Virus record (IMG/VR): IMGVR_UViG_3300034198_001704
Location: 1-21,693 of that record
Source of the DNA: a virus
DNA length: 21,693 bases
Direction: 5' to 3' (one strand)
In this document: piece after piece, positions 10,901 to 21,693 of the stretch
Layout: the number at the start of each line of letters is the position of its first letter
Numbering within the stretch: position 1 is the first letter of the stretch
Notes under the pieces: model-generated
What the model saw: only the letters and a program-made list of their open reading frames with translations
Told to the model about the DNA's origin: nothing
The model's database searches: none
Program-made: the position numbers and the translations under genes

Positions 10901-13900
10901 CGGTGTAATCCGTGATCGCGTTGATAATTTAGAATACTATACTTCACTTAATGCTCTTGAAAAGAATGCGAAAGACCTATTGATACCTGATACTAATGGT
11001 TTAGATCGCTTTAAGAATGGTATTCTGGTAGATTCGTTTAGTGGTCACAATATAGGTAATGTTCACGACGCTGATTATAAAATTTCTATCGACGCTTCCG
11101 CAAAAGAAGCTCGTCCTCTATTCGACGTACAGAACGTAGAATTCCGTTATGCTTCGGCTAACTCTTCTAATGTTGTTCGTACTAACGTAACAACTTCTGG
11201 TGTTTCGAAAGATCAGTGCGTCACTCTTAACGTGCAGTTAAGCAATCAATATAAGCCAGAAGCAACAGTTTCCTCTGGTGGAGCTACTGCTACAATTCGC
11301 AATACTGTATATCTACCAACTGGATATACTGCTTTGTATCTAGAAAACGCCACTGGTAATTTTGCTGTAGGTTCGAATCTTTCATCAAGTGATGGTGTTG
11401 CTTCGATGACGATTCAGCAAGTATTCACAACTACTCCAGGCGATCTAGTAACACTACCTTATTCTCATAAGGTTCTAGTCGAGCAACCATTTGCCACAAC
11501 AACAAGAAACGCTATCGGTACTTTCTATAACTATGTTGGTGAAATTCAGCTTAATCCTGATAGTGATTACTGGTGCGACACAACAAATCGTCCTGATGTT
11601 AATGTTAACGTAGATCTTAACACCGATAACTGGATGTGGTTGTCTAATTCATGGCAAACAGATTGGAATAACTGGACAACTATATGGACAGGTCAGGAAA
11701 ATCTTACTTCGTCCACAACTTCGGTGACTGGTCAATATAATAGACCAAACGCAGACGGATCGCAAGATATCGTCCAAACTTCCGTAACACAGAATTTATA
11801 CACAACACCAACAACTGAAGCTAGAACAGGTACGAAACCTGTAGTTACTGCCGTAAACGACAAACAGTCTTTCGGTAAAGTAATTAGAGACGTAAATGTT
11901 CAACCTTATATGCGTTCTAAGCGCATATTGTTCAAAGCTGTCGGTCTTAAGCCTAGTAGCCGCGTGTACGCTTTCTTTGACAACGTAAAGGTTGGTGATT
12001 ATGTCACACCTCTGACAGAAACAGAATATAACAATGGCGGCAACGGAAAATCAGCCGGTAAACAAGCACCATTGACTTACTCAGCTGGTTCAAATCTAGT
12101 CACAGATTCTAGTGGAAATGTGTATGGATTCTTTGATCTGCCTAACGATACAAGTTTGAAATTCCGTACTGGTCAACGTAAATTCCGCATAACAGATAAT
12201 CCAACAAATTCTCTTGTATTTGGAACTCAGACAACTTCTGCCGAAACATATTACACAGCAGAAGGTTTGATGGCTGGAACTTCAGAACTAACTCTTTCTA
12301 CTCGTCGACCTGTAATTACCAATCAGTCTTTGGTAGAAAATCGTACTGGAGCGCTGAATCGTTGGACTTCTAGTAATGGCGAACAAGTTATCGGTCTTGT
12401 TCCTGCGCCAATCGGTGGTGATGGTGATGCTGGTTCTTCTGGTGGTGGTGGTGGATGTGGTGGTAGTTGTGGTGGCTCAGACCCAATTGCTCAGTCGTTC
12501 TTGATTACTGGTCTACTTAAGACTAAGAATCAAACTTCTGGTATGTTTATCACTAAGGTAGATTTGTTCTTCGCTACTAAGGATAACACATTCCCTGTAA
12601 CTATTCAGTTGCAAGAATTAGACCCTATCACTTCTGCTGTAACGAATCGTGTTGTTCCGTTTTCTCGTGTCATCATGCAACCTTCTCAGGTTAACGTAAG
12701 TGATGACGCTTCGGCTGCAACTCCAATATATTTCCCATCTCCAGTATATCTAGAAGAAAACAAAGAATATGCTATTTCGGTTATCCCAGCTGGATGTAAT
12801 CCAAACTACAGCTGCTGGACTGCGGTTCTAGGCGAAAAAGATATCACAACTGGAAATCGTGTTGCACAACAACCAGCTTCTGGGTTCTTATTCACCTCAG
12901 CCAATCAACGTACTTGGGTTCCTGTAGAATCAGAAGACCTAAAGTTCACAGTTTACTATGCTGAGTTTGACAAAACAACACCTGGAACTATGATCATTAA
13001 AAATGAAGGTCGTGATTATCTAACTGTATCTAATTCTACGGGAGTATTCAGTAAGTATGGTGAATTTATTCATGGAGAAACAACCCTAAGAGCTAAGACA
13101 ACTTTTGCAAATACGAAATCTGTAAATACAAATGTGACATACGTTCAGGGTATGGTTTCTGGTGCTACCGGAACGATAACTTCATTTTCTGTTGGTCAGA
13201 TTAATGTTAAGAATGTATCAACTAATGTGAAGTTTAAAGGTGGTGAAGCAATTCGTATTCGTAATACGAATTCAACAACCGGCGTTATTATCGGTAACAC
13301 AGCAGGAAGTACTCTGTACTCAACAACAACTCCTGTAGGTTCGTTACAGTATTACGATGTTGTGAATTTTTCTAATACGAAACTTCACGTTGCTAATATG
13401 TCATATACGAACAGCGGACCAGCATATGCTAACTCTCGTATATTCAAAGTGAATAGTTATGTTAAGGGTCAGACAAATGGATATAGTGCTAAGATCATAT
13501 CCATAGATAATTTGGTTGCAGATACGATTAATCTTCAGATTGATAGTATTCTGCCTTCAAACACAAATCTAACTGCATCAGCTAAGTATGCCACGAGCAC
13601 TAGTGCGCGCGATTCATCATTCTTTAATCTTAAGATTAATGATAATACCGAACTATCTTCACCTCGTTATATCCTAAGCCGAAGTGTAGAGTCTAACACA
13701 GCTGCTTCATCAGCAACTATGGCTACAAATAAATCTGGCGAAGTAAAGTTGACACTAAGAAGTTTCAACCTACACGGTTCTCCAGCAGTTGATATTCGTC
13801 GTATGGCAAATATCGTAGTAAACAACCTGATTAGTTCTAATGCTGAAATCGGTTCATCTGAAGATTGGGTGCAGTTTGGTGGTAGATCTAAATCACGCTA

Positions 13901-14369
13901 TATAACTCGTATCGTAACTCTTGCTGATGGACAAGATGCGGAAGACCTTCGCGTATATCTTGCTGCATATAAACCTCCTGGTTCTGATGTTAAGGTATAT
14001 GTCAAGGTTCTACATAGCGAAGACAGTGATGCATTTACAGCTACTCGTTGGGTTCCGATGAATCTAACCACAGGTGAAGGATATGCTACTGTAGGAAAGT
14101 ATTCAAGCAGCCAGAATCGTACAAACTATATCGAGTTTGTTTACGATATGCCTACTTTCCCGACAACTGCAATTACAGATTCTTCTGGTCGTGCTATCAA
14201 TCAGTATGGTGCTAATACTACGAATAATAGCATATTTGAGTATCGCAACTCTGGTAAAGCTCGTTTCACTGGATTCAAGCAGTTTTCTATCAAGGTTGTG
14301 TTGACAAACGATACGAGCTCTAATCCACCCCGTATTCATGAATTGCGAGCAATCGCGCTACAGAGATAA
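7908..14369 (+). CDS. Giant DUF4815/VrlC-like virion structural protein
   Basis: This is a 2153-residue protein, the largest in the window. The N-terminus has FHRILFRPGLAVQARELTQM (residues 30-49) then QTILQNQIDRFA, the hallmark of DUF4815 proteins of T4-like phages (called VrlC-like in cyanophages). These are virion proteins thought to belong to the baseplate or tail periphery. Later landmarks are a Trp-rich patch (W1242 to W1260, six Trp in 19 residues), MRSKRILFKAVGLKPSSRVY with FFDN (about residues 1335-1360), and KFRTGQRKFRITD (about residues 1417-1430). A Gly-rich hinge carries C1517 and C1521. Directly after it comes DPIAQSFLI (from residue 1525), which opens a beta-rich lectin-like segment. 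The C-terminal 300 residues are again beta-rich. Residues 582-650 repeat a module found in the gp7- and gp8-like proteins. AAGG 8 bases before ATG 7908 supports the start. It occupies the gp9/gp10 position, but I see no clear gp9 or gp10. Confidence 0.85.
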   Translation: MAAEANNVTLSTNFNVAPFYDDFNETKNFHRILFRPGLAVQARELTQMQTILQNQIDRFASNIFKEGSSVTGFTPSVDIFYNYVKIRDNTSTGTSVTVDNLLNKTLRGTTSGVRGLVIKVNDGSEANTPNFKTLFVKYISANTNGTKRFSNNEILTDVSGSGLTCNTITATQGGTAGYSFVVNFDAGVVYAKDHFIRVPSQTVVVGKYTNTPTAKVGFDISEQIITELSDSSLLDPASGSYNYAAPGASRLKLVVNVASYAITAPVSNTFVEILQVKEGILQSINDRPQYAAIRDYIASRTSDESGDYIVNGYGISLNESLKTSTNFGYSVTGNSNYLIATVQPGKAYVKGYDVTRLVPTNLGVRKATDYASVQSAKSLVDYGNYLICDNVVGAWDLNYQTRVTLRDTQANSVSQKTYSLTTFPGAQIGTARVRGIEYYSGTPGAPDAQYKVYVTDIKMNAGKSFVQVQSLAANTGTGSANGKADILYSNGLNANTYDASFDRAIFKLPANYVRRLRDTSGNVNNDYSFYKSFDITFNTSGVATINTGDTSETFDGSGVLSDDGTRTDFYIVARTASNTATLTGKVNVTNAGNTITAFGGTGTAFSTQVNKGDIISVANSGDYVVSSVNSDTSLNIYGTISGTKTNMPYFKKFKAGQVLDFAGTGKAGNRTITISGTPSTVATLALNEGTIGSTLSAKAIVTLNKIDGQEAAKTVVRNRLVQVNVGVGGGTSYTANTTGPWPLGMSDGFQLISVRKKTGTTWSTTTDGTDVTSHFTLDTGMTDNYYDHAKLVKKPASSLTITNGESILVKFDHFTHSYSSGVGYFSVDSYPVNDSTAGTDTTKIYTYQIPLYTSKNDGTTYDLRNCIDIRPRVSDSANSVSALTNISKNPLTAITFDQPSGGLHFSPPGQDFTTDLDYYLRRKDIITLNKDGSFKVTEGIPEVQPRTPNIVSDAMTLGVVNLAPYPSVSQEIGRQVNRLDLASTLTKVKNERFTMRDIGVIRDRVDNLEYYTSLNALEKNAKDLLIPDTNGLDRFKNGILVDSFSGHNIGNVHDADYKISIDASAKEARPLFDVQNVEFRYASANSSNVVRTNVTTSGVSKDQCVTLNVQLSNQYKPEATVSSGGATATIRNTVYLPTGYTALYLENATGNFAVGSNLSSSDGVASMTIQQVFTTTPGDLVTLPYSHKVLVEQPFATTTRNAIGTFYNYVGEIQLNPDSDYWCDTTNRPDVNVNVDLNTDNWMWLSNSWQTDWNNWTTIWTGQENLTSSTTSVTGQYNRPNADGSQDIVQTSVTQNLYTTPTTEARTGTKPVVTAVNDKQSFGKVIRDVNVQPYMRSKRILFKAVGLKPSSRVYAFFDNVKVGDYVTPLTETEYNNGGNGKSAGKQAPLTYSAGSNLVTDSSGNVYGFFDLPNDTSLKFRTGQRKFRITDNPTNSLVFGTQTTSAETYYTAEGLMAGTSELTLSTRRPVITNQSLVENRTGALNRWTSSNGEQVIGLVPAPIGGDGDAGSSGGGGGCGGSCGGSDPIAQSFLITGLLKTKNQTSGMFITKVDLFFATKDNTFPVTIQLQELDPITSAVTNRVVPFSRVIMQPSQVNVSDDASAATPIYFPSPVYLEENKEYAISVIPAGCNPNYSCWTAVLGEKDITTGNRVAQQPASGFLFTSANQRTWVPVESEDLKFTVYYAEFDKTTPGTMIIKNEGRDYLTVSNSTGVFSKYGEFIHGETTLRAKTTFANTKSVNTNVTYVQGMVSGATGTITSFSVGQINVKNVSTNVKFKGGEAIRIRNTNSTTGVIIGNTAGSTLYSTTTPVGSLQYYDVVNFSNTKLHVANMSYTNSGPAYANSRIFKVNSYVKGQTNGYSAKIISIDNLVADTINLQIDSILPSNTNLTASAKYATSTSARDSSFFNLKINDNTELSSPRYILSRSVESNTAASSATMATNKSGEVKLTLRSFNLHGSPAVDIRRMANIVVNNLISSNAEIGSSEDWVQFGGRSKSRYITRIVTLADGQDAEDLRVYLAAYKPPGSDVKVYVKVLHSEDSDAFTATRWVPMNLTTGEGYATVGKYSSSQNRTNYIEFVYDMPTFPTTAITDSSGRAINQYGANTTNNSIFEYRNSGKARFTGFKQFSIKVVLTNDTSSNPPRIHELRAIALQR

Positions 14370-14370
14370 T

Positions 14371-14589
14371 ATGACAAAAGTCGTAAAAGTAAAAGAATCG
14401 CCTAATCTAGTTCGTGATTTGTCTAGCCAGGCGATTCTTAATACAGATAAAACAGGGCTTATAGCATATAAAAAATCTCGTGAAAAGCAAAAAGAAATAA
14501 CGGCTGCTGTTGACGATATAAATAATATGAAGCAAGATATCAACGATCTTAAGACGCTTATGCAGCGCATTTTAGACAAGATAGGATAA
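14371..14589 (+). CDS. Small conserved-looking coiled-coil phage protein
   Basis: This is a 72-residue protein starting at ATG 14371, one base after the stop of the giant protein. An in-frame upstream ATG at 14338 would overlap that gene by 32 bases and is less likely. The N-terminal half (KESPNLVRDLSSQAILNTDK, residues 8-27, then YKKSREKQ) resembles small proteins encoded beside fibre genes in many T4-like phages, with a 'NLVRD...AILNTD...Y' pattern. The rest is a heptad-like helix (ITAAVDDINNMKQDINDLKT and following), suggesting an oligomeric coiled coil. The function is not known to me. Position suggests a baseplate or fibre accessory component. Confidence 0.75.
   Translation: MTKVVKVKESPNLVRDLSSQAILNTDKTGLIAYKKSREKQKEITAAVDDINNMKQDINDLKTLMQRILDKIG
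14517..14524 (+). promoter_or_regulatory. Possible internal late promoter ahead of the tail fibre
   Basis: An exact TATAAATA lies inside the 72-residue gene, 69 bases upstream of the tail fibre ATG at 14593. T4-like late promoters can lie within upstream genes, so it could give the fibre genes extra transcription. It also simply encodes Asp-Ile-Asn-Asn in an AT-rich frame, so chance is a fair alternative. Confidence 0.3.
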
Positions 14590-14592
14590 GCA

Positions 14593-16044
14593 ATGGCATT
14601 ACTCGCTAACGTCTCTCTTACTAATACATTTGATACGTGGCGTACTCGCACGAATCAACTTGTTACTCGTATCAATCAGTTCGCGATTAATGAGTCTTCT
14701 CTCTATGCTAACACGCTTACTTCTAACACGGCATTTACCGCTAAGGGAACTGCTACTGTAACAGGCTTACTTACTGCGTCTGGTCGTGCTACTATAGGAA
14801 CTAATCTGACGGTTTCTGGTAACACTACTATAGGTGCTGCTGGTAAAACTGCTAACGTAACTGGTTGGTTTGGCGTTCTTGGTCGTGCTTCAGTTTCAAC
14901 TAATCTTTGGGTATCAGGCAACACAAATTTCGGTGGTGTTAATAAGGTTTCTAATACAACTGGATGGTTCGGCGTCAATGGTCGCGCAACCGTAGCAACA
15001 AATTTGTTCGTAGGTGGAAATACTACGATTGCTGGTGCACTGAATATCAATGGTGCTATTAACCTCGGCGACGCTTCTACAGACCTTCTTACTGTAACTG
15101 GTCGCGCTACTATCGGACAAAATCTAAGTGTTTCCGGCAATACGACTCTTGGTGGTGCTAATAAAACTATAACAATGGGTGGCGCTGCTTCTACCCTAAC
15201 AATCGGTGGAGCTGGGCATACAACTAACACAACTGGTTGGTTCGGCGTTGCTGGTCGTGCGACAGTTTCAACCAATCTGTTTGTTGGTGCGAATACTACT
15301 GTTGTAGGCAGACTAGGTGTAGGAACCTCTTCACCTTCGGTAAAAATACACTCATCTTCAGTAAGTTCTGGCGACGGAATTATGTCCGAATACACCGGAA
15401 GTTCTCAGTATGCTTCGGCATCCGTGAGACTTAGAACAGGCGTAGGCACAACTAACCAAAGAGAAGTTCACCTTTATAACTATGTCCAAGATGCCAGTAA
15501 CCTTTATGGTAATTTTGCTATAGGTCAATTTAACGGGTCTGGAAGTTATATACAGACTTTAGCACAATATGATATGAATGGTAACATTTGGTCATTTAAT
15601 ACTGCGGGTGCAGAACGACTGCGTATCGCAGCAAGCGGTGAAGTAGTTGCTTATAATTCGATGACGGTCACAAAGAACCTAACAGTTTCTGGTAACACCA
15701 CGATTAACGGCACAACAACCGATAAGTCAAACGCTTTATCACAAACTCTAACAGACGGTGCTACAATCAACTGGGACGTATCACTTGGTCGTGTTGCTAC
15801 AGTAACTCTTGGTGCTGCTGGTCGTACAATGGCTGCACCAACCAATCTAAAGGTTGGCACATATATCCTTCGCGTGTATCAAGACGGTACAGGCTCGCGC
15901 ACGATCACGACATGGAACTCAGTATTCAAATGGACTGCTGCTGTTGCTCCTGTGCTTTCAACAGGTGCAAGTAAACTAGATATTATAACATTCTTTTCTG
16001 ACGGAACTAACCTCTATGGCTCATATCTACCAGATATGAGATAA
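14593..16044 (+). CDS. Tail fibre protein with GRAT/GNTT repeats
   Basis: This is a 483-residue fibre protein. Residues 1-60 (ANVSLTNTFDTWRTRTNQLV at 5-24) are the usual N-terminal attachment segment of short phage fibres. Residues 64-247 are five or six imperfect copies of a beta-helix-like unit, 'GRATxxTNLxVxGNTTxGGxNK', often followed by 'TGWFGV'. A further copy (LTVSGNTTING) lies around residue 370. After the first block comes a more varied region (residues 248-345) containing 'AERLRIAASGEV'. The C-terminal 100 residues (VTLGAAGRTMAAPTNLKVGT, then RVYQDGTGSRTI, KLDIITFFSDGTNLYGSY) form a globular tip domain common in phage and prophage fibres. I see no peptidase S74 chaperone. It lies between a small coiled-coil gene and a glycine-rich adhesin gene, so this is the host-recognition module. 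Repeat number and tip sequence are likely fast-evolving. Confidence 0.88.
   Translation: MALLANVSLTNTFDTWRTRTNQLVTRINQFAINESSLYANTLTSNTAFTAKGTATVTGLLTASGRATIGTNLTVSGNTTIGAAGKTANVTGWFGVLGRASVSTNLWVSGNTNFGGVNKVSNTTGWFGVNGRATVATNLFVGGNTTIAGALNINGAINLGDASTDLLTVTGRATIGQNLSVSGNTTLGGANKTITMGGAASTLTIGGAGHTTNTTGWFGVAGRATVSTNLFVGANTTVVGRLGVGTSSPSVKIHSSSVSSGDGIMSEYTGSSQYASASVRLRTGVGTTNQREVHLYNYVQDASNLYGNFAIGQFNGSGSYIQTLAQYDMNGNIWSFNTAGAERLRIAASGEVVAYNSMTVTKNLTVSGNTTINGTTTDKSNALSQTLTDGATINWDVSLGRVATVTLGAAGRTMAAPTNLKVGTYILRVYQDGTGSRTITTWNSVFKWTAAVAPVLSTGASKLDIITFFSDGTNLYGSYLPDMR
14782..15333 (+). repeat. Imperfect in-frame fibre repeats
   Basis: Repeated coding units give 'GRATxxTNLxVxGNTT' with variable spacers. 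Three of them are introduced by 'TTGWFGV' or 'VTGWFGV' (around 14860, 14960 and 15235). DNA copies are similar but not identical, including GGTTGGTT(T/C)GGCGTT before the unit. The pattern fits a triple-stranded beta-helical fibre shaft. Confidence 0.85.
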
Positions 16045-16051
16045 GGATGAA

Positions 16052-17248
16052 ATGACTTTCTTAGCTTTTCTACCTAAACCAACACAAGTCATTACTATCA
16101 ACAGTGCGACAAACAATGTCAATCTTCGCACACAAGCGGGTAGCCCAGCTTATCCGTTGAATCTGCTTGCGTTCATCAATGCGGCTGTTGGTTCAACATC
16201 TACAGCAACACCAGCTTTAGATACTGGTTCTGGTTGGACTGGTGGCACATTTATTTTCCTTCAAAATAATAACACAATCACAGGCGGAACTGGAACTCCT
16301 GGAAATCCAGGAAATTCTGGAACAACAGGAACTTCTGGAACAACAGGAGCAACAGGAAACCCAGGAAGTGCTGGAAATCCAGGCTCTAACGGAGCTGGTG
16401 GTGCTGGCGGCAATTCATCTTTTGGTTGGTTTTCCAATGCAGGAGCTGGTGGAGGGCCAGCCTCCGCAGGTAATCCTGGTGGAACTGGAAATGCTGGTGG
16501 AACTGGAAATGCTGGTGGAACTGGAAATGCTGGTGGAACTGGAAATGCTGGTGGTAGTGGAGGATCCTCACTAACTGTTCCTTCTGGAACGGGAGTTATA
16601 GTTGTTGTTGATAATGTTTCTACTATAGTAGGTGGTGTGGGTGGAAATGCAGGCCCAGGAGGTTCTGGAGGTCCAGGAGGGCCTGGTGGTCCGGGCGGTC
16701 CAGGAGGTCCTGGGGGCGGTGGTGGTGGAGGTGCTACAGGAGGAGGCGGTGGAGGAGGAGGATATACAGGTTATTATCCTAGTTACACACCAGCTCAAGG
16801 TTACACTCCTGCATATGCTTATTCAGGTATAACCGCAGGTGGCGGAGGTGGCGGACAAGGTGTTCCTGGCGGACCAGGCGGATCCGCTGGTGGTTATGGT
16901 GGAAATCCAGGAAATGCTGGGTCTCCTTCGGGAGCAGGAAATTCAGCCGTAGTAGTATTTAATGAAGGTGGGTATTCTGGATGGTATTGGACATATCCAG
17001 GAGGTAATGGTGGACCTCTAGGTACCGCTGGCGCTGGAACTGCTTATGTAGGTGGTGGTGGCGCTGGAGCTGGATCAGGCGGAGGTAATCCAGGAGCAAC
17101 AGGCTCTGCTGGACCAACAGGCGCTACTGGACCAACAGGAGCAACAGGCCCTGCTGGATCAGCAGGAGCAAGAGGCAATGCAGTAACTGGTAATGCAAAC
17201 ATTACCGCATACATAAACACAGGAACTAGAACAGGACCAGTAGCATGA
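16052..17248 (+). CDS. Glycine-rich, collagen-like tail fibre adhesin
   Basis: This is a 398-residue protein. Residues 1-75 (TQVITINSATNNVNLRTQAG, 12-31, then GGTFIFLQNNNTITGG) form the conserved N-terminal beta domain that precedes glycine-rich tips in many phage fibres. From residue 76 on, Gly is dominant and three textures alternate. The first is collagen-like G-x-y runs (GTPGNPGNSGTTG; near the end PTGATGPTGATGPAG). The second is four perfect GGTGNA hexapeptides. The third is PGG and poly-Gly runs (about residues 204-236), separated by aromatic patches (YTGYYPSYTPAQGYTPAYAY; GYSGWYWTYPGG). The last residues, GNAVTGNANITAYINTGTRT, match a common ending of such adhesins. This composition suggests a polyglycine-II bundle, as in the gp38 adhesin of Salmonella phage S16, with exposed aromatic loops as receptor contacts. 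The role in host binding is inferred. The stop overlaps the next start (ATGA). Confidence 0.8.
   Translation: MTFLAFLPKPTQVITINSATNNVNLRTQAGSPAYPLNLLAFINAAVGSTSTATPALDTGSGWTGGTFIFLQNNNTITGGTGTPGNPGNSGTTGTSGTTGATGNPGSAGNPGSNGAGGAGGNSSFGWFSNAGAGGGPASAGNPGGTGNAGGTGNAGGTGNAGGTGNAGGSGGSSLTVPSGTGVIVVVDNVSTIVGGVGGNAGPGGSGGPGGPGGPGGPGGPGGGGGGGATGGGGGGGGYTGYYPSYTPAQGYTPAYAYSGITAGGGGGGQGVPGGPGGSAGGYGGNPGNAGSPSGAGNSAVVVFNEGGYSGWYWTYPGGNGGPLGTAGAGTAYVGGGGAGAGSGGGNPGATGSAGPTGATGPTGATGPAGSAGARGNAVTGNANITAYINTGTRTGPVA
16478..16549 (+). repeat. Four perfect 18-base tandem repeats (GGTGNA codons)
   Basis: GGTGGAACTGGAAATGCT is repeated four times without a mismatch, encoding Gly-Gly-Thr-Gly-Asn-Ala. Such perfect in-frame repeats are prone to slippage and would change adhesin length by six residues without a frameshift. 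Confidence 0.95.
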
Positions 17249-17697
17249 ACATTCATTACAAAATTGTTGAACTATGGCCAGATGATCATCTTATCGTAGC
17301 AAGATATTGGACTGATAATATCACAGAAGAAATGCTTGCGTCTGATGCAAATCGTAAAGAAGATGGAACACCTGTTCGTTGTCGTTCAGATGTATCTATT
17401 AATCTTCCTGTCCCTATGCCAACAGATCCAGATGAAATAGATAAGCTGATCAAAACGGCCGGTCCTGTGGAATGGTTGAAAACCTTAGAAGACGTTAAAA
17501 ATCCAGACGTTGATACTTCTTTAACTGCCGTTGTTGGTCTTGTAGGTGTAACTAAGTCAACGAATAAACAAGAAATAGAAGAAATCAAATCAGCCATATT
17601 AGAAAGTGCTAAGATTCCGCAGATAGAAACAGTGAAAGAACTTACTGACGACGATATTCAAAAACTTATCGATGCGGTTGCTGCTAAACCAAATTAA
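17245..17697 (+). CDS. Conserved-type phage protein next to fibre genes, function unknown
   Basis: This is a 150-residue acidic protein. The N-terminal half (HYKIVELWPDDHLIVARYWT, residues 4-23; NITEEMLAS; CRSDVSINLPVPMPTDPDEI, residues 45-64) resembles a domain of unknown function often encoded beside tail fibre genes in marine phages: 'Iv...h.ivvRyyTD..TE.mLA...RcR.D..i.lPvP'. The middle has GPVEWLKTLEDVKNPDVDTS and the last 45 residues are helical and charged. It starts in an ATGA overlap with the glycine-rich adhesin, so the two are made together. A role as fibre chaperone or fibre-tip partner is reasonable but is inference from position. It is the last gene of the structural series before a change of content. 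Confidence 0.65.
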   Translation: MNIHYKIVELWPDDHLIVARYWTDNITEEMLASDANRKEDGTPVRCRSDVSINLPVPMPTDPDEIDKLIKTAGPVEWLKTLEDVKNPDVDTSLTAVVGLVGVTKSTNKQEIEEIKSAILESAKIPQIETVKELTDDDIQKLIDAVAAKPN

Positions 17698-17715: not shown

Positions 17716-18762
17716 ATGTCCATTGAATTAAAAACGACGTTCTACTACGACGACAATTTTAATGTGTATATTACGCCGTATGATGCGTGGAAAAGCTCTA
17801 AAAAATGTTATTTTTATTATTATGACAATATGTTTTCGCAATTTGATTGGAAAACAGAACCTTCCGAATCTTTACAGCAACTATACAAAGAACGAGCGCA
17901 ACAGATTCGAGATGATTATGAGTACGTGATTCTTTGTTATTCTGGCGGAAACGATTCTACGAACATACTAGAAACATTCTATTATAATAACATTCATATT
18001 GACGAGATCGTTGTGGTTGGTGCTATATCACAGGATAAGACACAAAACACCGACGACAATCATAATGCTGACATATATTTCAATGCGTTACCTACTCTTA
18101 ATTCTATGAATCTACCCAATACGAAAATCACTGTAATAGACTACACGAAATATTTCCGGAACATTAATCAATTTTCATTAATTCAAACTCATGGTTCTGA
18201 TTATTTTAAGTACATAGGAAATCACAGTAGTCCACACAATTTATTTTGGCATGATTTTCGAAAATTCGTTGGAGAAACGAATACTAAAAAAACTGCGTGG
18301 ATTATGGGTAATGAAAAAGTCGAGCTATCATACGATAAGCGCAATAAACCATTCGTGTACTTTAATGATCTAGTTGTAAATAGTTACGGTATGAAATACG
18401 TAGATGAAAATTTTGAGCGTATAAATTTTTATAGCGGTTATCATGAGTCTGCCGTAAAAATACAGATAAAGCAAGGACACATTTTACACAGAGAATTGTC
18501 AGCATTAGCTGATGTAGCATTAAAACCAAAATTAATCAGAAGTCGTCATTACAAAAACAAATTGTTTTACGAAAAAAAATATATCAAATTGGCTCATCAA
18601 TCCGAAAAATCTAAAGCAAAATTTTTATCATTACGAGACACTTTTCTAAAAGATGTAACAGATAGCCAAATATATTCAGTTTATGTTGATGGACTAAAAA
18701 AACATAAAGAATATTGTAGAGACGGAATTATAGTCGGCACCAAACATTACTACATAACATGA
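17716..18762 (+). CDS. PP-loop ATP pyrophosphatase-like enzyme
   Basis: This is a 348-residue protein. After a beta strand (YEYVILCY) comes SGGNDS at residues 76-81, the SGGxDS PP-loop that binds the ATP phosphates in N-type ATP pyrophosphatases (asparagine synthetase, QueC, NadE and tRNA-modifying families). These enzymes adenylate a carbonyl or carboxyl so that ammonia, an amine or sulfur can attack. Residues 84-150 fit the Rossmann-like core (IDEIVVVGAI; NADIYFNALPTLNSMN). I see no glutamine amidotransferase domain and no zinc or thiolation cysteine pairs. The C-terminal 100 residues are Lys/His-rich and unassigned. There is no clear Shine-Dalgarno before ATG 17716, unlike the structural genes. 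The coding DNA is visibly AT-richer than the fibre genes (15 G/C in the 60 bases 18541-18600). It overlaps the next gene as ATGA. The substrate is unknown. A distant asparagine-synthase-like relation is possible. Confidence 0.72.
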   Translation: MSIELKTTFYYDDNFNVYITPYDAWKSSKKCYFYYYDNMFSQFDWKTEPSESLQQLYKERAQQIRDDYEYVILCYSGGNDSTNILETFYYNNIHIDEIVVVGAISQDKTQNTDDNHNADIYFNALPTLNSMNLPNTKITVIDYTKYFRNINQFSLIQTHGSDYFKYIGNHSSPHNLFWHDFRKFVGETNTKKTAWIMGNEKVELSYDKRNKPFVYFNDLVVNSYGMKYVDENFERINFYSGYHESAVKIQIKQGHILHRELSALADVALKPKLIRSRHYKNKLFYEKKYIKLAHQSEKSKAKFLSLRDTFLKDVTDSQIYSVYVDGLKKHKEYCRDGIIVGTKHYYIT

Positions 18763-19205
18763 CTTATTTACTGATATTTCTGCTATGGACATTCGTTGTG
18801 TATTGGATGCACAGACTCGCGCACCAGCTCTCGTTCATGCGCGAACATCACTTAGATCATCACGATCAGGTGACAGAACAAACTATACAAGGACTAAGCT
18901 GGAAAAACATATTTCTGTGGTTTGATTCTTGGAACAGCACAGTAGACCAGTGGATCACCGAAGTTATCCCAACTATAGTAATATCAGCAGTCACGGGACA
19001 TTGGTGGTTGTTTATTGCGTATTATGTTTGGGCTGCATTTATTCAAGAATCTGTTGAACATAACGATAAGATTAATCTTTATCCTTGGATAACTAGCGGC
19101 AAATGGCATCTTATACACCACAATGATCCTACGAAAAACTATGGTGTGTTTATTCCGTTATGGGATATAGTATTCGGCACAAGGAAATCACTTGATGGCA
19201 ACTGA
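18759..19205 (+). CDS. Compact membrane di-iron hydroxylase (fatty-acid hydroxylase/sterol desaturase class)
   Basis: This is a 148-residue membrane protein with the complete histidine-box pattern of the fatty-acid hydroxylase/sterol desaturase superfamily. The boxes are H18-x3-H22, H31-x2-H34-H35 and H117-x2-H120-H121, with an extra H101 in VEHND. They are followed by the typical end NDPTKNYGVFIPLWDIVFGT (residues 122-141). These histidines would hold two irons that use O2 to hydroxylate or desaturate a lipid-like or hydrophobic substrate. Hydrophobic segments lie at about residues 2-17 and 68-95. It is shorter than most relatives (about 200-300 residues), yet no box is missing. It is embedded between two PP-loop genes with an ATGA overlap upstream and an 11-base overlap downstream, so it is made with them. 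The substrate is unknown; relatives also include carotenoid hydroxylases. The call to superfamily level is firm. Confidence 0.85.
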   Translation: MTYLLIFLLWTFVVYWMHRLAHQLSFMREHHLDHHDQVTEQTIQGLSWKNIFLWFDSWNSTVDQWITEVIPTIVISAVTGHWWLFIAYYVWAAFIQESVEHNDKINLYPWITSGKWHLIHHNDPTKNYGVFIPLWDIVFGTRKSLDGN

Positions 19206-19920
19206 AAATCATTGGTTGCGAACAAATATCAAAGAACGATTAACCAACCCTAACGCGAATTTTGTTGTTACGTTTGATCATATAAATTATACTCCTACAT
19301 CATTTAATGAAGCATGTCAGCGAGTAGTTAAGAAAATTGTAGCAAAATACGATAACATTTATCTTCCGTTAAGTGGAGGAATGGATTCGGAACATGTGTT
19401 CAATTGTTTCTTAGGTCACAAATTTACCCCTATCATAGTAGATAGTCCAGCCAATAGAAAAGAATCTATTCGCGCATTTGAATTATGTGCGCAAACAAAC
19501 ATAACACCTATAGTCATAGAAAAGACCGAAAAAGAAATGGTCGAAACATATCATGAACAGATCTATAAAAAATTAAAAGGTTCTGGATTCAATTCTACTG
19601 CAACATATATCGCCGGTAAATATGCTGATGATAATGGTGGTGTTGCTGTGATAAGTGAACACGGATTTGATGGTATGAACGAATGGGATTTTTACAATGA
19701 TGCACTTATTCATGAAGAAAATAGCGTCTACTTTTTTCTTTACGACATAGAAATATTTTCTTCGATGCTATTAGAGTTTGCTAACTATTCGCATCATCAA
19801 GAATTCAAAAGCAGAATCTACAATATACCGATACGCAAAAAAATAAAGTATAACTATTCAAAAGATTATTACGACATAATCAAAAGTATGCTAAAGAATT
19901 TAACTAAAGGTGAACAATGA
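19195..19920 (+). CDS. Second PP-loop ATP pyrophosphatase-like enzyme
   Basis: This is a 241-residue protein from ATG 19195. A TTG three bases upstream would add one residue but is less likely, and AAGGA at 19181-19185 suits the ATG. The PP-loop SGGMDS lies at residues 60-65 after the strand DNIYLPL, with a following helix EHVFNCFLG and a second strand FTPIIVDS. This is the normal layout of an asparagine-synthetase-like or QueC-like adenylating domain. Further core elements are the segment IAGKYADDNGGVAVISEHGF (about residues 140-159) and an acidic patch, DGMNEWDFYNDAL. No glutaminase domain and no zinc cysteines are visible, so ammonia or an amine substrate would have to come from elsewhere. 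It differs strongly from the 348-residue PP-loop protein, so the two are not a recent duplication. It starts inside the hydroxylase gene and overlaps the amidoligase gene as ATGA. Confidence 0.75.
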   Translation: MATENHWLRTNIKERLTNPNANFVVTFDHINYTPTSFNEACQRVVKKIVAKYDNIYLPLSGGMDSEHVFNCFLGHKFTPIIVDSPANRKESIRAFELCAQTNITPIVIEKTEKEMVETYHEQIYKKLKGSGFNSTATYIAGKYADDNGGVAVISEHGFDGMNEWDFYNDALIHEENSVYFFLYDIEIFSSMLLEFANYSHHQEFKSRIYNIPIRKKIKYNYSKDYYDIIKSMLKNLTKGEQ

Positions 19921-20720
19921 GATCTTGGGGATTAGAATTAGAATTCGGTGACGTACCGAAATCATTGGTTTTGCCGAAAACGATTGGAAAATGGGAATAT
20001 CATGAGATTGATATTGTTAATGCGCTACCTCCATATCGAGGAGTTTCTGTCGACCCATTAGGAGTAAACCCTCCTGTAGGGGGAGAAATTAACACAGTTC
20101 CTACATACGGAATTGATAAACAAATGAATGTGGTGCGTGATCTGTTCGCATTTTTTGAAACAAACAACATAACACCCACATCAAACTGTATACAACAAAC
20201 ACACGTTCATGTTCATGATGATAAATTCAATGATCTATATTATCTCAAACAACTGTTCTTTTTTATCGCGGCTAATCAGCATGAACTTATAAAAGTTTCA
20301 GACTATAGCATAGACCCACGAATGACACCATTCGCAATAGACGTGTTTAAAGGATATAACAGCTACACATACTATCTAGATCAAGTTCGTTCTATGCTAT
20401 ACGCAAAAACGATAGATGATTTCCTAACACACGCCAGATTAGACGAAAATGATGTAGGCAAACGTAATTTCATTAATTTTTTGCCGCTGAAAGCTAATCC
20501 AGGTACAATTGAATTTCGTTGTTTCAATTGTACCGTGGATCTAGAAGAAATTGAAGCTTGTATGTTATTCGCCAACGATGTGTTAGATCTAAAGCTTCCT
20601 GTTGGTCACAAAACACCAAAATTTATCTACGATCACGAGTTGATACTAGGTTGGGAAAAAACTCGCAAACAAAGACCCGATATACGAAACAAACAATGGA
20701 TGAAAATGAATCCTATCTGA
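19917..20720 (+). CDS. Putative amidoligase (COOH-amine ligase, glutamine-synthetase-like fold)
   Basis: This is a 267-residue protein. The motifs and their order match the amidoligase_2 type: GLELEFG (residues 5-11), GGEINTVP (55-62), THVHVH (95-100), RNFINFLPL (183-191) and TIEFRCFN (197-204). In this fold the Glu, His and Arg residues bind metals, ATP and the carboxylate. Such enzymes join a carboxyl group to an amine, and the family has been predicted to build small peptides or to modify proteins. The length is normal for a stand-alone enzyme. It is coupled to the second PP-loop gene (ATGA), the last of four overlapping genes. The 3' end runs 8 bases into the convergent dioxygenase gene, leaving no room for a separate terminator. 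The acceptor and donor are unknown. Because its partners are two adenylating enzymes and an oxygenase, a biosynthetic role is more likely than nitrogen assimilation. Confidence 0.78.
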   Translation: MRSWGLELEFGDVPKSLVLPKTIGKWEYHEIDIVNALPPYRGVSVDPLGVNPPVGGEINTVPTYGIDKQMNVVRDLFAFFETNNITPTSNCIQQTHVHVHDDKFNDLYYLKQLFFFIAANQHELIKVSDYSIDPRMTPFAIDVFKGYNSYTYYLDQVRSMLYAKTIDDFLTHARLDENDVGKRNFINFLPLKANPGTIEFRCFNCTVDLEEIEACMLFANDVLDLKLPVGHKTPKFIYDHELILGWEKTRKQRPDIRNKQWMKMNPI

Positions 20721-21330
20721 ACTTGGGACCTAATACCCACACGACTAACGATCGTCTTGTTCCCATAGTTATAGGTTTGACTCGATGATTCATGAAAGAA
20801 GGAAACAAAACAATTCTTCCTTTTTTCATAGGCACAATATCACAGTTTTCTTCTGATCCTAAATTAACACAAAACTCTCCACCCTTAAAAGTATCGTTTA
20901 ATAACAACGATAATGATAGTTTTCGCATTTCTATATCTGGTGTATCACTTCTACCGACCGAAGTATCCATATGCCAATCGTACCGACCATTCTTTTCGCT
21001 GTTGTATGTGGTGTATTGAAATTTCGAATAACCATTTAAATCAAAGTTATAAAACTTTTCGTTTATGGCTTGAACGACAAAATTTAATCTATCAAATATC
21101 CAAGCGGTATCTAAATTTCTCTCATGAAACAACACATCAGATACTCTATGTTTTTCTACAATTTCTTTTTCAGAAGTATCCAATAAAGTTCCTTGTTTCA
21201 ATTCAAATGTTTCGCAGTATGAAACAATCTTTTCAAGTTCTTCTTCTGTAAATGCGTCGTCCCAATACACCCACGGTTCCATGAATTTAGCGCGAGCATA
21301 TGGGTCGTTGTAGATAGTTGTGTAACTCAT
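20713..21330 (-). CDS. 2-oxoglutarate/Fe(II)-dependent dioxygenase
   Basis: This is a 205-residue minus-strand protein. The iron triad is H120-x-D122 (in YDWHMDT) and H182 (in SFMNHRV), and R192 (in TMGTRRSLVVWV) would bind the 2-oxoglutarate carboxylate, the standard HxD...H...R arrangement. Strands KFQYTTYN and SLSLLLND, and the loop FKGGEFCVN, belong to the double-stranded beta helix. The PKHD-type (prolyl hydroxylase-like) subgroup is the closest match. It would hydroxylate a protein side chain, nucleic acid base or small molecule using O2. Related dioxygenases are common in T4-like marine phages, but targets are mostly unknown. It starts within the stop of the TctC-like gene (ATGA), so both come from one minus-strand transcript. 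It overlaps the amidoligase gene tail-to-tail by 8 bases. Confidence 0.88.
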   Translation of the reverse strand: MSYTTIYNDPYARAKFMEPWVYWDDAFTEEELEKIVSYCETFELKQGTLLDTSEKEIVEKHRVSDVLFHERNLDTAWIFDRLNFVVQAINEKFYNFDLNGYSKFQYTTYNSEKNGRYDWHMDTSVGRSDTPDIEMRKLSLSLLLNDTFKGGEFCVNLGSEENCDIVPMKKGRIVLFPSFMNHRVKPITMGTRRSLVVWVLGPKFR

Positions 21331-21693
21331 TTCATATCCCTCAAGTAGTTTAATGATGATTCGGGTGCGTTATATGTAGCACTGACGATAGCCTCAGATT
21401 CTTCCCAATCTATAGGATTTACTTCAATTTTTGATTTAGCAGCTTCTTCTAAAAACTCAGGGTCAGAAACAGCTTTATTGAAAGCCTCGCGTAGCTCGCT
21501 CGCGCGAGTAGGTGATATTCCTGGAGGAGCTGCGAACGGTCGTATCAATATGTTTTGAGATTCGTATACGCTTAGGATAGTCTTATCGTCAGTATATTCT
21601 TCGAGCGTAGGGACCGTAGGATATTCTTTGTGACGCACACGACCATTTCCAAACTGGACCAGCGGAAATACTTTACTGTCGGCAGTTAACCAA
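21327..21693 (-). CDS. TctC/Bug-family solute-binding receptor, C-terminal part
   Basis: The frame stays open to the window edge, so the gene continues beyond it. A GTG at 21638 could start a short protein, but in-frame residues upstream (FPLVQFGNGRV) continue the family pattern. About 121 residues are visible. YPTVPTLEEY, then IRPFAAPPGISPTRASELRE, and KAVSDPEFLEEAAKSKIEVN match the C-terminal lobe of tripartite tricarboxylate transporter receptors, which have '.P..PT..E', '..APPG.P.....LR.AF' and '..DP.FL.EA.K...e..p'. Those proteins bind organic acids in the periplasm for a TctAB membrane carrier. No TctA or TctB gene is in view, and the signal peptide end is outside the window. The stop overlaps the start of the dioxygenase gene. 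In a phage this is best read as a host-derived nutrient receptor used during infection, comparable in principle to phage PstS. Confidence 0.85.
   Translation of the reverse strand, partial: WLTADSKVFPLVQFGNGRVRHKEYPTVPTLEEYTDDKTILSVYESQNILIRPFAAPPGISPTRASELREAFNKAVSDPEFLEEAAKSKIEVNPIDWEESEAIVSATYNAPESSLNYLRDMK

Follow-up and report, generated by a model that had tools for sequence, protein, structure and literature searches.

In the relevant passage of a paper on OM43 phages, amidoligase, GATase and 2OG genes are itemised singly, and proposed roles in cell-wall or metabolite chemistry are cited (PMC10580990). The corresponding passage on SUP05 viruses notes tctA and 2OG genes, with their role given as unknown (PMC4164917). 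Neither passage describes the gene cassette analyzed here. By genome position, the closest described systems are the fibre-to-neck islands of HTVC008M and other Kyanoviridae. They occupy the same site as the cassette, and their 2OG genes likewise lie on the minus strand. In HTVC008M (KC465899.1, 57442-59681 and 63763-65157) the minus strand carries four 2OG/phytanoyl dioxygenases between fibre and neck genes, and a tryptophan halogenase is annotated between terminase genes. In contrast to the locus studied here, neither HTVC008M nor Melnitz has an annotated PP-loop, amidoligase, membrane di-iron hydroxylase (FAH) or TctC gene at the fibre-to-neck position.

The stretch of DNA analyzed (the window) spans 21,693 bases and is a virus record whose first part carries T4-type baseplate and fibre genes. 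By baseplate, its nearest cultured relatives are Kyanoviridae: gp6 is closest to that of Melnitz, a Methylophilales phage, and of the Pelagibacter phage HTVC008M, both filed in this family. An earlier note on this DNA had described four coupled genes after the fibre module. The reading frames, all on the plus strand, and the overlaps of 4, 11 and 4 bases between these consecutive genes were confirmed. The block at 17716-20720, however, is not the whole unit, as it continues on the minus strand with a 2OG gene and a TctC fragment that the note had left unconnected. The features are as follows.

14593..17248, plus strand: fibre genes (a 483-aa repeat fibre and a 398-aa Gly-rich protein), directly 5' of the cassette region
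17245..17697, plus strand: up150, a small protein with no function assigned, conserved directly 5' of PP1
17716-18762, plus strand: PP1, predicted AsnB-type synthetase-domain PP-loop enzyme with SGGNDS, by fold and motif (348 aa)
18759-19205, plus strand: FAH, a di-iron membrane enzyme that belongs to the fatty acid hydroxylase family (148 aa; PF04116, 1.3e-16)
19192/19195-19920, plus strand: PP2, predicted small AsnB-type synthetase-domain PP-loop enzyme with SGGMDS, by fold and motif (242/241 aa)
19917-20720, plus strand: AMID, COOH-NH2 amidoligase (Amidoligase_2), an optional member (267 aa; PF12224, 9.2e-9)
20713-21330, minus strand: 2OG-Fe(II) oxygenase, PKHD/YbiX-like, at the convergent end of the island (PF13640, 2.5e-14; phrog_61, 1.1e-33)
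21327-21693, minus strand: TctC-type periplasmic solute-binding protein, truncated at the edge of the window so that its C-terminal part is present (this fragment matches PF03401 at 0.011)

The family consensus opens MATxNNWL, which makes the ATG at 19195 the most likely start of PP2.

Scans of IMG/VR yielded 38 loci for PP1, 71 with a PP2 profile, 80 kept of 83 with an FAH profile and 80 kept of 98 with an AMID profile. Linkage was counted within 6 kb in distinct loci; as protein sequence was the criterion for distinctness, close relatives may still count more than once. The co-occurrence that the earlier note had proposed to check was readily observed: 61 of 72 FAH-seeded loci contained PP2, and 49 contained PP1 or its paralogue PP1b. 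PP2-seeded loci (n = 67) had PP1 or PP1b in 54 and FAH in 42 cases, and PP1-seeded loci (n = 34) had PP2 in 27, FAH in 25 and up150 in 24. The genes also recur as ordered and mostly overlapping pairs (FAH-PP2 47 times, PP1-FAH 28 times). In the gene maps the recurrent core is PP1-FAH-PP2, or FAH-PP2-PP1, in dozens of loci. The exact order PP1-FAH-PP2-AMID is found in the window and in 3300010885_005240, 3300016265_000241 and 3300021962_002735. One additional gene precedes AMID in 3300034198_002381, and the order in 3300009684_001705 is FAH-PP2-PP1-TctC-AMID. Thus, the four-gene combination in which the earlier note had seen the novelty does recur in independent contigs, but the defining unit is PP1-FAH-PP2 and AMID is optional (5 of 67 distinct amidoligase loci).

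Two trivial explanations were considered. Misassembly with host DNA is ruled out by the same order in independent contigs from several metagenomes, which shows that the arrangement is no assembly accident. Chance juxtaposition is ruled out by the linkage and ordered-pair counts.

PP1 and PP2 are new families without a Pfam model. Searched singly, neither gave a family above cut-off in Pfam, PHROG or NCBIfam; Pfam Asn_synthase was matched by 12 of 26 PP2 members (best 1.2e-4). The AlphaFold (AF2) models are confident (pLDDT 92.1 for PP1 and 94.3 for PP2). The PP2 model aligned with human ASNS at Z 14.2 and rmsd 3.3 over 236 residues. For PP1, VIA-align likewise returned human ASNS as top match (Z 11.9, 278 aligned), and beta-lactam synthetase fitted as well, both fits (Z 11-12, rmsd near 6) being weaker than that of PP2. 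A Foldseek search of the PDB with the PP1 model gave nothing below 0.001 and placed LarE, TilS and NAD synthetase above AsnB with weak E-values; AsnB was clearly separated for PP1 by the second aligner, VIA-align, only, at a high rmsd of 5.8. Alignment of the PP1 and PP2 profiles with a single E. coli AsnB sequence by hhalign gave no signal, and PDB sequence searches with the PP1, FAH and AMID profiles gave 0 matches. Based on the models, both proteins are predicted to have the synthetase fold of asparagine synthetase without the glutaminase domain, which is the outcome of the structure prediction that the earlier note had suggested. While E. coli AsnB starts MCSIFG, an N-terminal Ntn glutaminase with catalytic Cys is absent from both translations. 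AsnB-type synthetase domains without glutaminase make amide or amine ligation likelier than generic adenylation or thiolation.

In PP1, SGGxDS, K201, K252, K298 and R307 are invariant across 30 sequences. From reading the sequences, G-x-[DE]-K201 of PP1 would lie in the region where AsnB carries SGEGSDE, and E156-H157 of PP2 (24 of 26 members) would occupy the same place. Some loci contain PP1 without FAH or PP2 (L009/L010 and L025/L026, for example), so PP1 can work alone. FAH is well supported by Pfam (61.7 bits against a gathering threshold of 31). Its histidine boxes HxxxH/HxxHH/HxxHH are intact, and H18, H22, H31, H34, H35, H101, H117, H120 and H121 are invariant in 25 sequences. AMID scores 36 bits against a gathering threshold of 22, with the motifs GLELEFG/GGEINT/THVHV/TIEFR intact and the Amidoligase_2 residues E/E, E, H/H and E-R all present. 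Degenerate active sites can thus be ruled out, and intact motifs in all four genes are borne out by catalytic positions that vary little or not at all among relatives. For the cassette, dN is ∼0.18-0.28 while dS is saturated (2.74 for FAH), indicating strong purifying selection.

The amidoligase offers a link to DNA modification. A recurrent locus with the order Tet/JBP - class-II GATase - amidoligase - GNAT - ADDT - P-loop kinase was observed in L117, L121, L132 and ∼57 further loci (ADDT, amino acid:DNA transferase), apparently a DNA-hypermodification pathway of related aquatic phages. Among the 67 amidoligase loci, class-II GATase neighbours were found in 57, ADDT in 53 and Tet/JBP in 49. 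At least one of these three was nearby in 60 of the 62 non-cassette loci; two of the 67 showed neither setting. If the cassette served nucleic-acid hypermodification in the same way, the homology of AMID to the amidoligase of that locus would be explained, as every motif residue is in common and the catalytic residues are also present in 61-62 of 62 DNA-modification relatives. Moreover, both locus types occur on one contig (L114 and L121). Yet none of the 67 amidoligase loci combines both settings, and ADDT, Tet/JBP and GATase partners accompany 0 of 5 cassette amidoligases. The cassette also lacks a kinase gene, and FAH is membrane-bound. The six cassette AMIDs, window included, form a single clade (FastTree support 0.991). 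Judged from this tree and from the separate settings, the cassette AMID is a dedicated paralogue from a DNA-modification enzyme family. We consider hypermodification very improbable. Small molecule, peptide, virion protein, lipid and nucleic acid had all been named by the earlier note as targets, and gene co-occurrence disfavours the last of these.

The 2OG and TctC genes past 20720 are part of the same island, because relatives show them there. A 2OG gene is near PP1 in 19 of 34 PP1-seeded loci, and fibre-linked loci mostly end in a minus-strand 2OG oxygenase, often accompanied by a second 2OG and a TctC gene. Intact TctC equivalents in relatives have signal peptides, as read from the sequence, and one matches PF03401 at 3.7e-7; identity to proteobacterial copies (plasmid set) is at most 34%. 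Many relatives have in addition PP1b, a longer paralogue of PP1. A TctC-type gene adjoins PP1b in 46 of 69 cases versus 4 of 56 for PP1. Five loci (L056, L057, L061, L063 and L091) each have two PP1b-TctC8 pairs, in opposite orientations in L056/L057, which suggests duplication or exchange of the two genes together.

Further enzymes are added in some relatives, namely FA_desaturase, radical SAM/B12, P450, Rieske, nitronate monooxygenase (NMO), AMP-binding ligases and TctA. The TctA membrane-subunit gene (L038:2862-4361; PF01970, 4.8e-125) lies on a virus contig together with PP1, PP2 and a gene of the TctC type. Two AMP-binding-type ligase genes adjoin the cassette at L066:9688-12758, where an ORF at 13443-14627 looks like a host purine gene. 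In L245 (7192-9533) and its sister loci L238, L240, L243 and L246, FAH adjoins further ORFs with a TctC gene nearby; by eye, and in L245 only, the neighbours read as adenylylsulfate kinase and sulfotransferase. On a 348-kb contig (3300023174_000038, L251:2612-13973) FAH-PP2-PP1b lies among two desaturases, radical SAM/B12, P450 and GNAT genes, together with several small proteins of one family, a neighbourhood that resembles a natural-product cluster.

TctC receptors are carboxylate binders, and this would agree with ordinary auxiliary metabolism, in which the genes would raise the assimilation of nitrogen and carbon through asparagine- or glutamine-like amides and carboxylate uptake and would not form one pathway. 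The AsnB fold of PP1 and PP2 and the frequency of 2OG genes in cyanophages point the same way. On the other hand, PP1 and PP2 have no glutaminase domain and are not closely similar to true AsnB, the SGEGSDE region appears to be replaced in PP1, by our own reading, with invariant K201, and unlinked metabolic genes would not give a strict order with a membrane hydroxylase. This explanation is unlikely.

The position of the cassette bears on another alternative. In relatives its 5' neighbours are the fibre clusters fib4/fib6, and the orders fib6-up150 and up150-PP1 were each counted 29 times. In most fibre-linked relatives up150 comes after the Gly-rich fibre gene. Direct adjacency to fibre genes and these recurrent orders would be expected if PP1, PP2 and AMID amidated or ligated, and FAH and 2OG hydroxylated, residues of the neighbouring Gly-rich or repeat fibres and thereby altered adsorption specificity. 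The PP1 genes of L009/L010, beside up150 and 2OG, fit as well. Virion-protein modification is the main rival, though still an improbable one: FAH is a membrane enzyme, TctC proteins are left without a role, and no fibre gene was recognised near FAH-PP2-PP1b in L251.

A search for the late-promoter motif TATAAATA found it twice in the window, which is the chance expectation, and 0 times before the cassette. The position of the cassette would suggest late expression together with the fibre operon. PADLOC models of anti-phage defence matched no known system, giving just generic 2OG and a marginal CorA-like match. It is plausible, at slightly below even odds, that the genes are one end of an auxiliary biosynthetic island of T4-like aquatic phages between fibre and neck genes.

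The reading we prefer, with a probability of roughly 45%, is a phage pathway whose substrate, a small molecule or lipid with a carboxylate, becomes amidated and hydroxylated. Going by the chemistry of their families, PP1, PP2 and, where present, AMID would each activate a carboxylate with ATP and couple it with ammonia or an amine, acting without their own glutaminase, and FAH and the 2OG enzyme would add hydroxyls. More tentatively, the substrate may be a small molecule or lipid of the infected cell, in view of the membrane-bound FAH and the frequent periplasmic carboxylate-binding TctC proteins, with desaturases added in relatives. TctC might supply or bind this substrate, and the product might be an oxidised amide, probably altering the host envelope or serving as a metabolite. 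This pathway is favoured by linkage, gene order, folds, invariant residues, purifying selection, PP1b-TctC pairing, the added oxidative and activating enzymes, and a fibre-to-neck location where HTVC008M has its 2OG and phytanoyl dioxygenases. Against it, TctC could be a separate passenger, and the tie of PP1 to fibre-adjacent up150 also fits a virion role. A broader and more doubtful version of the pathway is a modular biosynthetic cluster. Its AsnB-type ligases (PP1, PP2, PP1b), with PP1b often having a periplasmic acid-binding protein as partner, and its membrane and 2OG oxygenases would assemble an amide that is lipid or resembles a natural product. Modules would come and go between phages much as in the natural-product clusters of bacteria, and the product would give control over the infected cell or rival phages.

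Relatives of PP1, PP2, AMID, PP1b and TctC were not found among 50,697 deposited phages, where FAH was matched by just two Acinetobacter phage records at 25% identity. A pattern-seeded scan of 84,980 prokaryote genomes, which could miss divergent members, gave no close PP1 or PP2 relative. Predicted structures of unnamed uncultured-Caudovirales proteins match PP1 at 45% identity, so the family is deposited though uncharacterised. A literature search found no paper describing the PP1-FAH-PP2(-AMID) gene set. The cassette is real, widespread and undescribed; its enzymes come from known superfamilies, and the variable region in which it lies is known as well. The earlier view of a conserved, biosynthesis-like phage cassette unlike any described system holds. 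Many uncultivated aquatic phages share this enzyme set, usually just 3' of tail-fibre genes, and it looks like a conserved pathway by which some molecule of the infected cell is made or modified. If a dedicated amide product is indeed made, aquatic phages would run their own multi-enzyme biosynthesis, and the stand-alone asparagine-synthetase-type ligases would represent a new class of enzymes and open up a large body of unexplored chemistry. The periplasmic TctC proteins and oxygenases of these genomes, now usually itemised as separate auxiliary genes, would then be accounted for too.

Compared with known enzymes, AsnB-type synthetases (AsnB, beta-lactam and carbapenam synthetase) have a synthetase fold that covers nearly all of PP1 and PP2, and the PP-loop SGGxDS is common to them; ATP-dependent amide chemistry is expected. 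PP1 and PP2 differ in lacking the Ntn glutaminase domain, in an identity of 6-15% and in other residues around the acceptor site. FAH shares histidine boxes and hydrophobic segments with the fatty acid hydroxylase superfamily (PF04116), whereas it has just ∼148 aa and is coupled to AsnB-type genes. AMID has the amidoligase family and motif residues in common with phage GATase-amidoligase and thymidine hypermodification loci (Amidoligase_2, ADDT), but it belongs to a separate clade, in a cassette without those partners. In the commonest cassette order PP2 lies upstream of AMID, in place of the GATase of the hypermodification loci.
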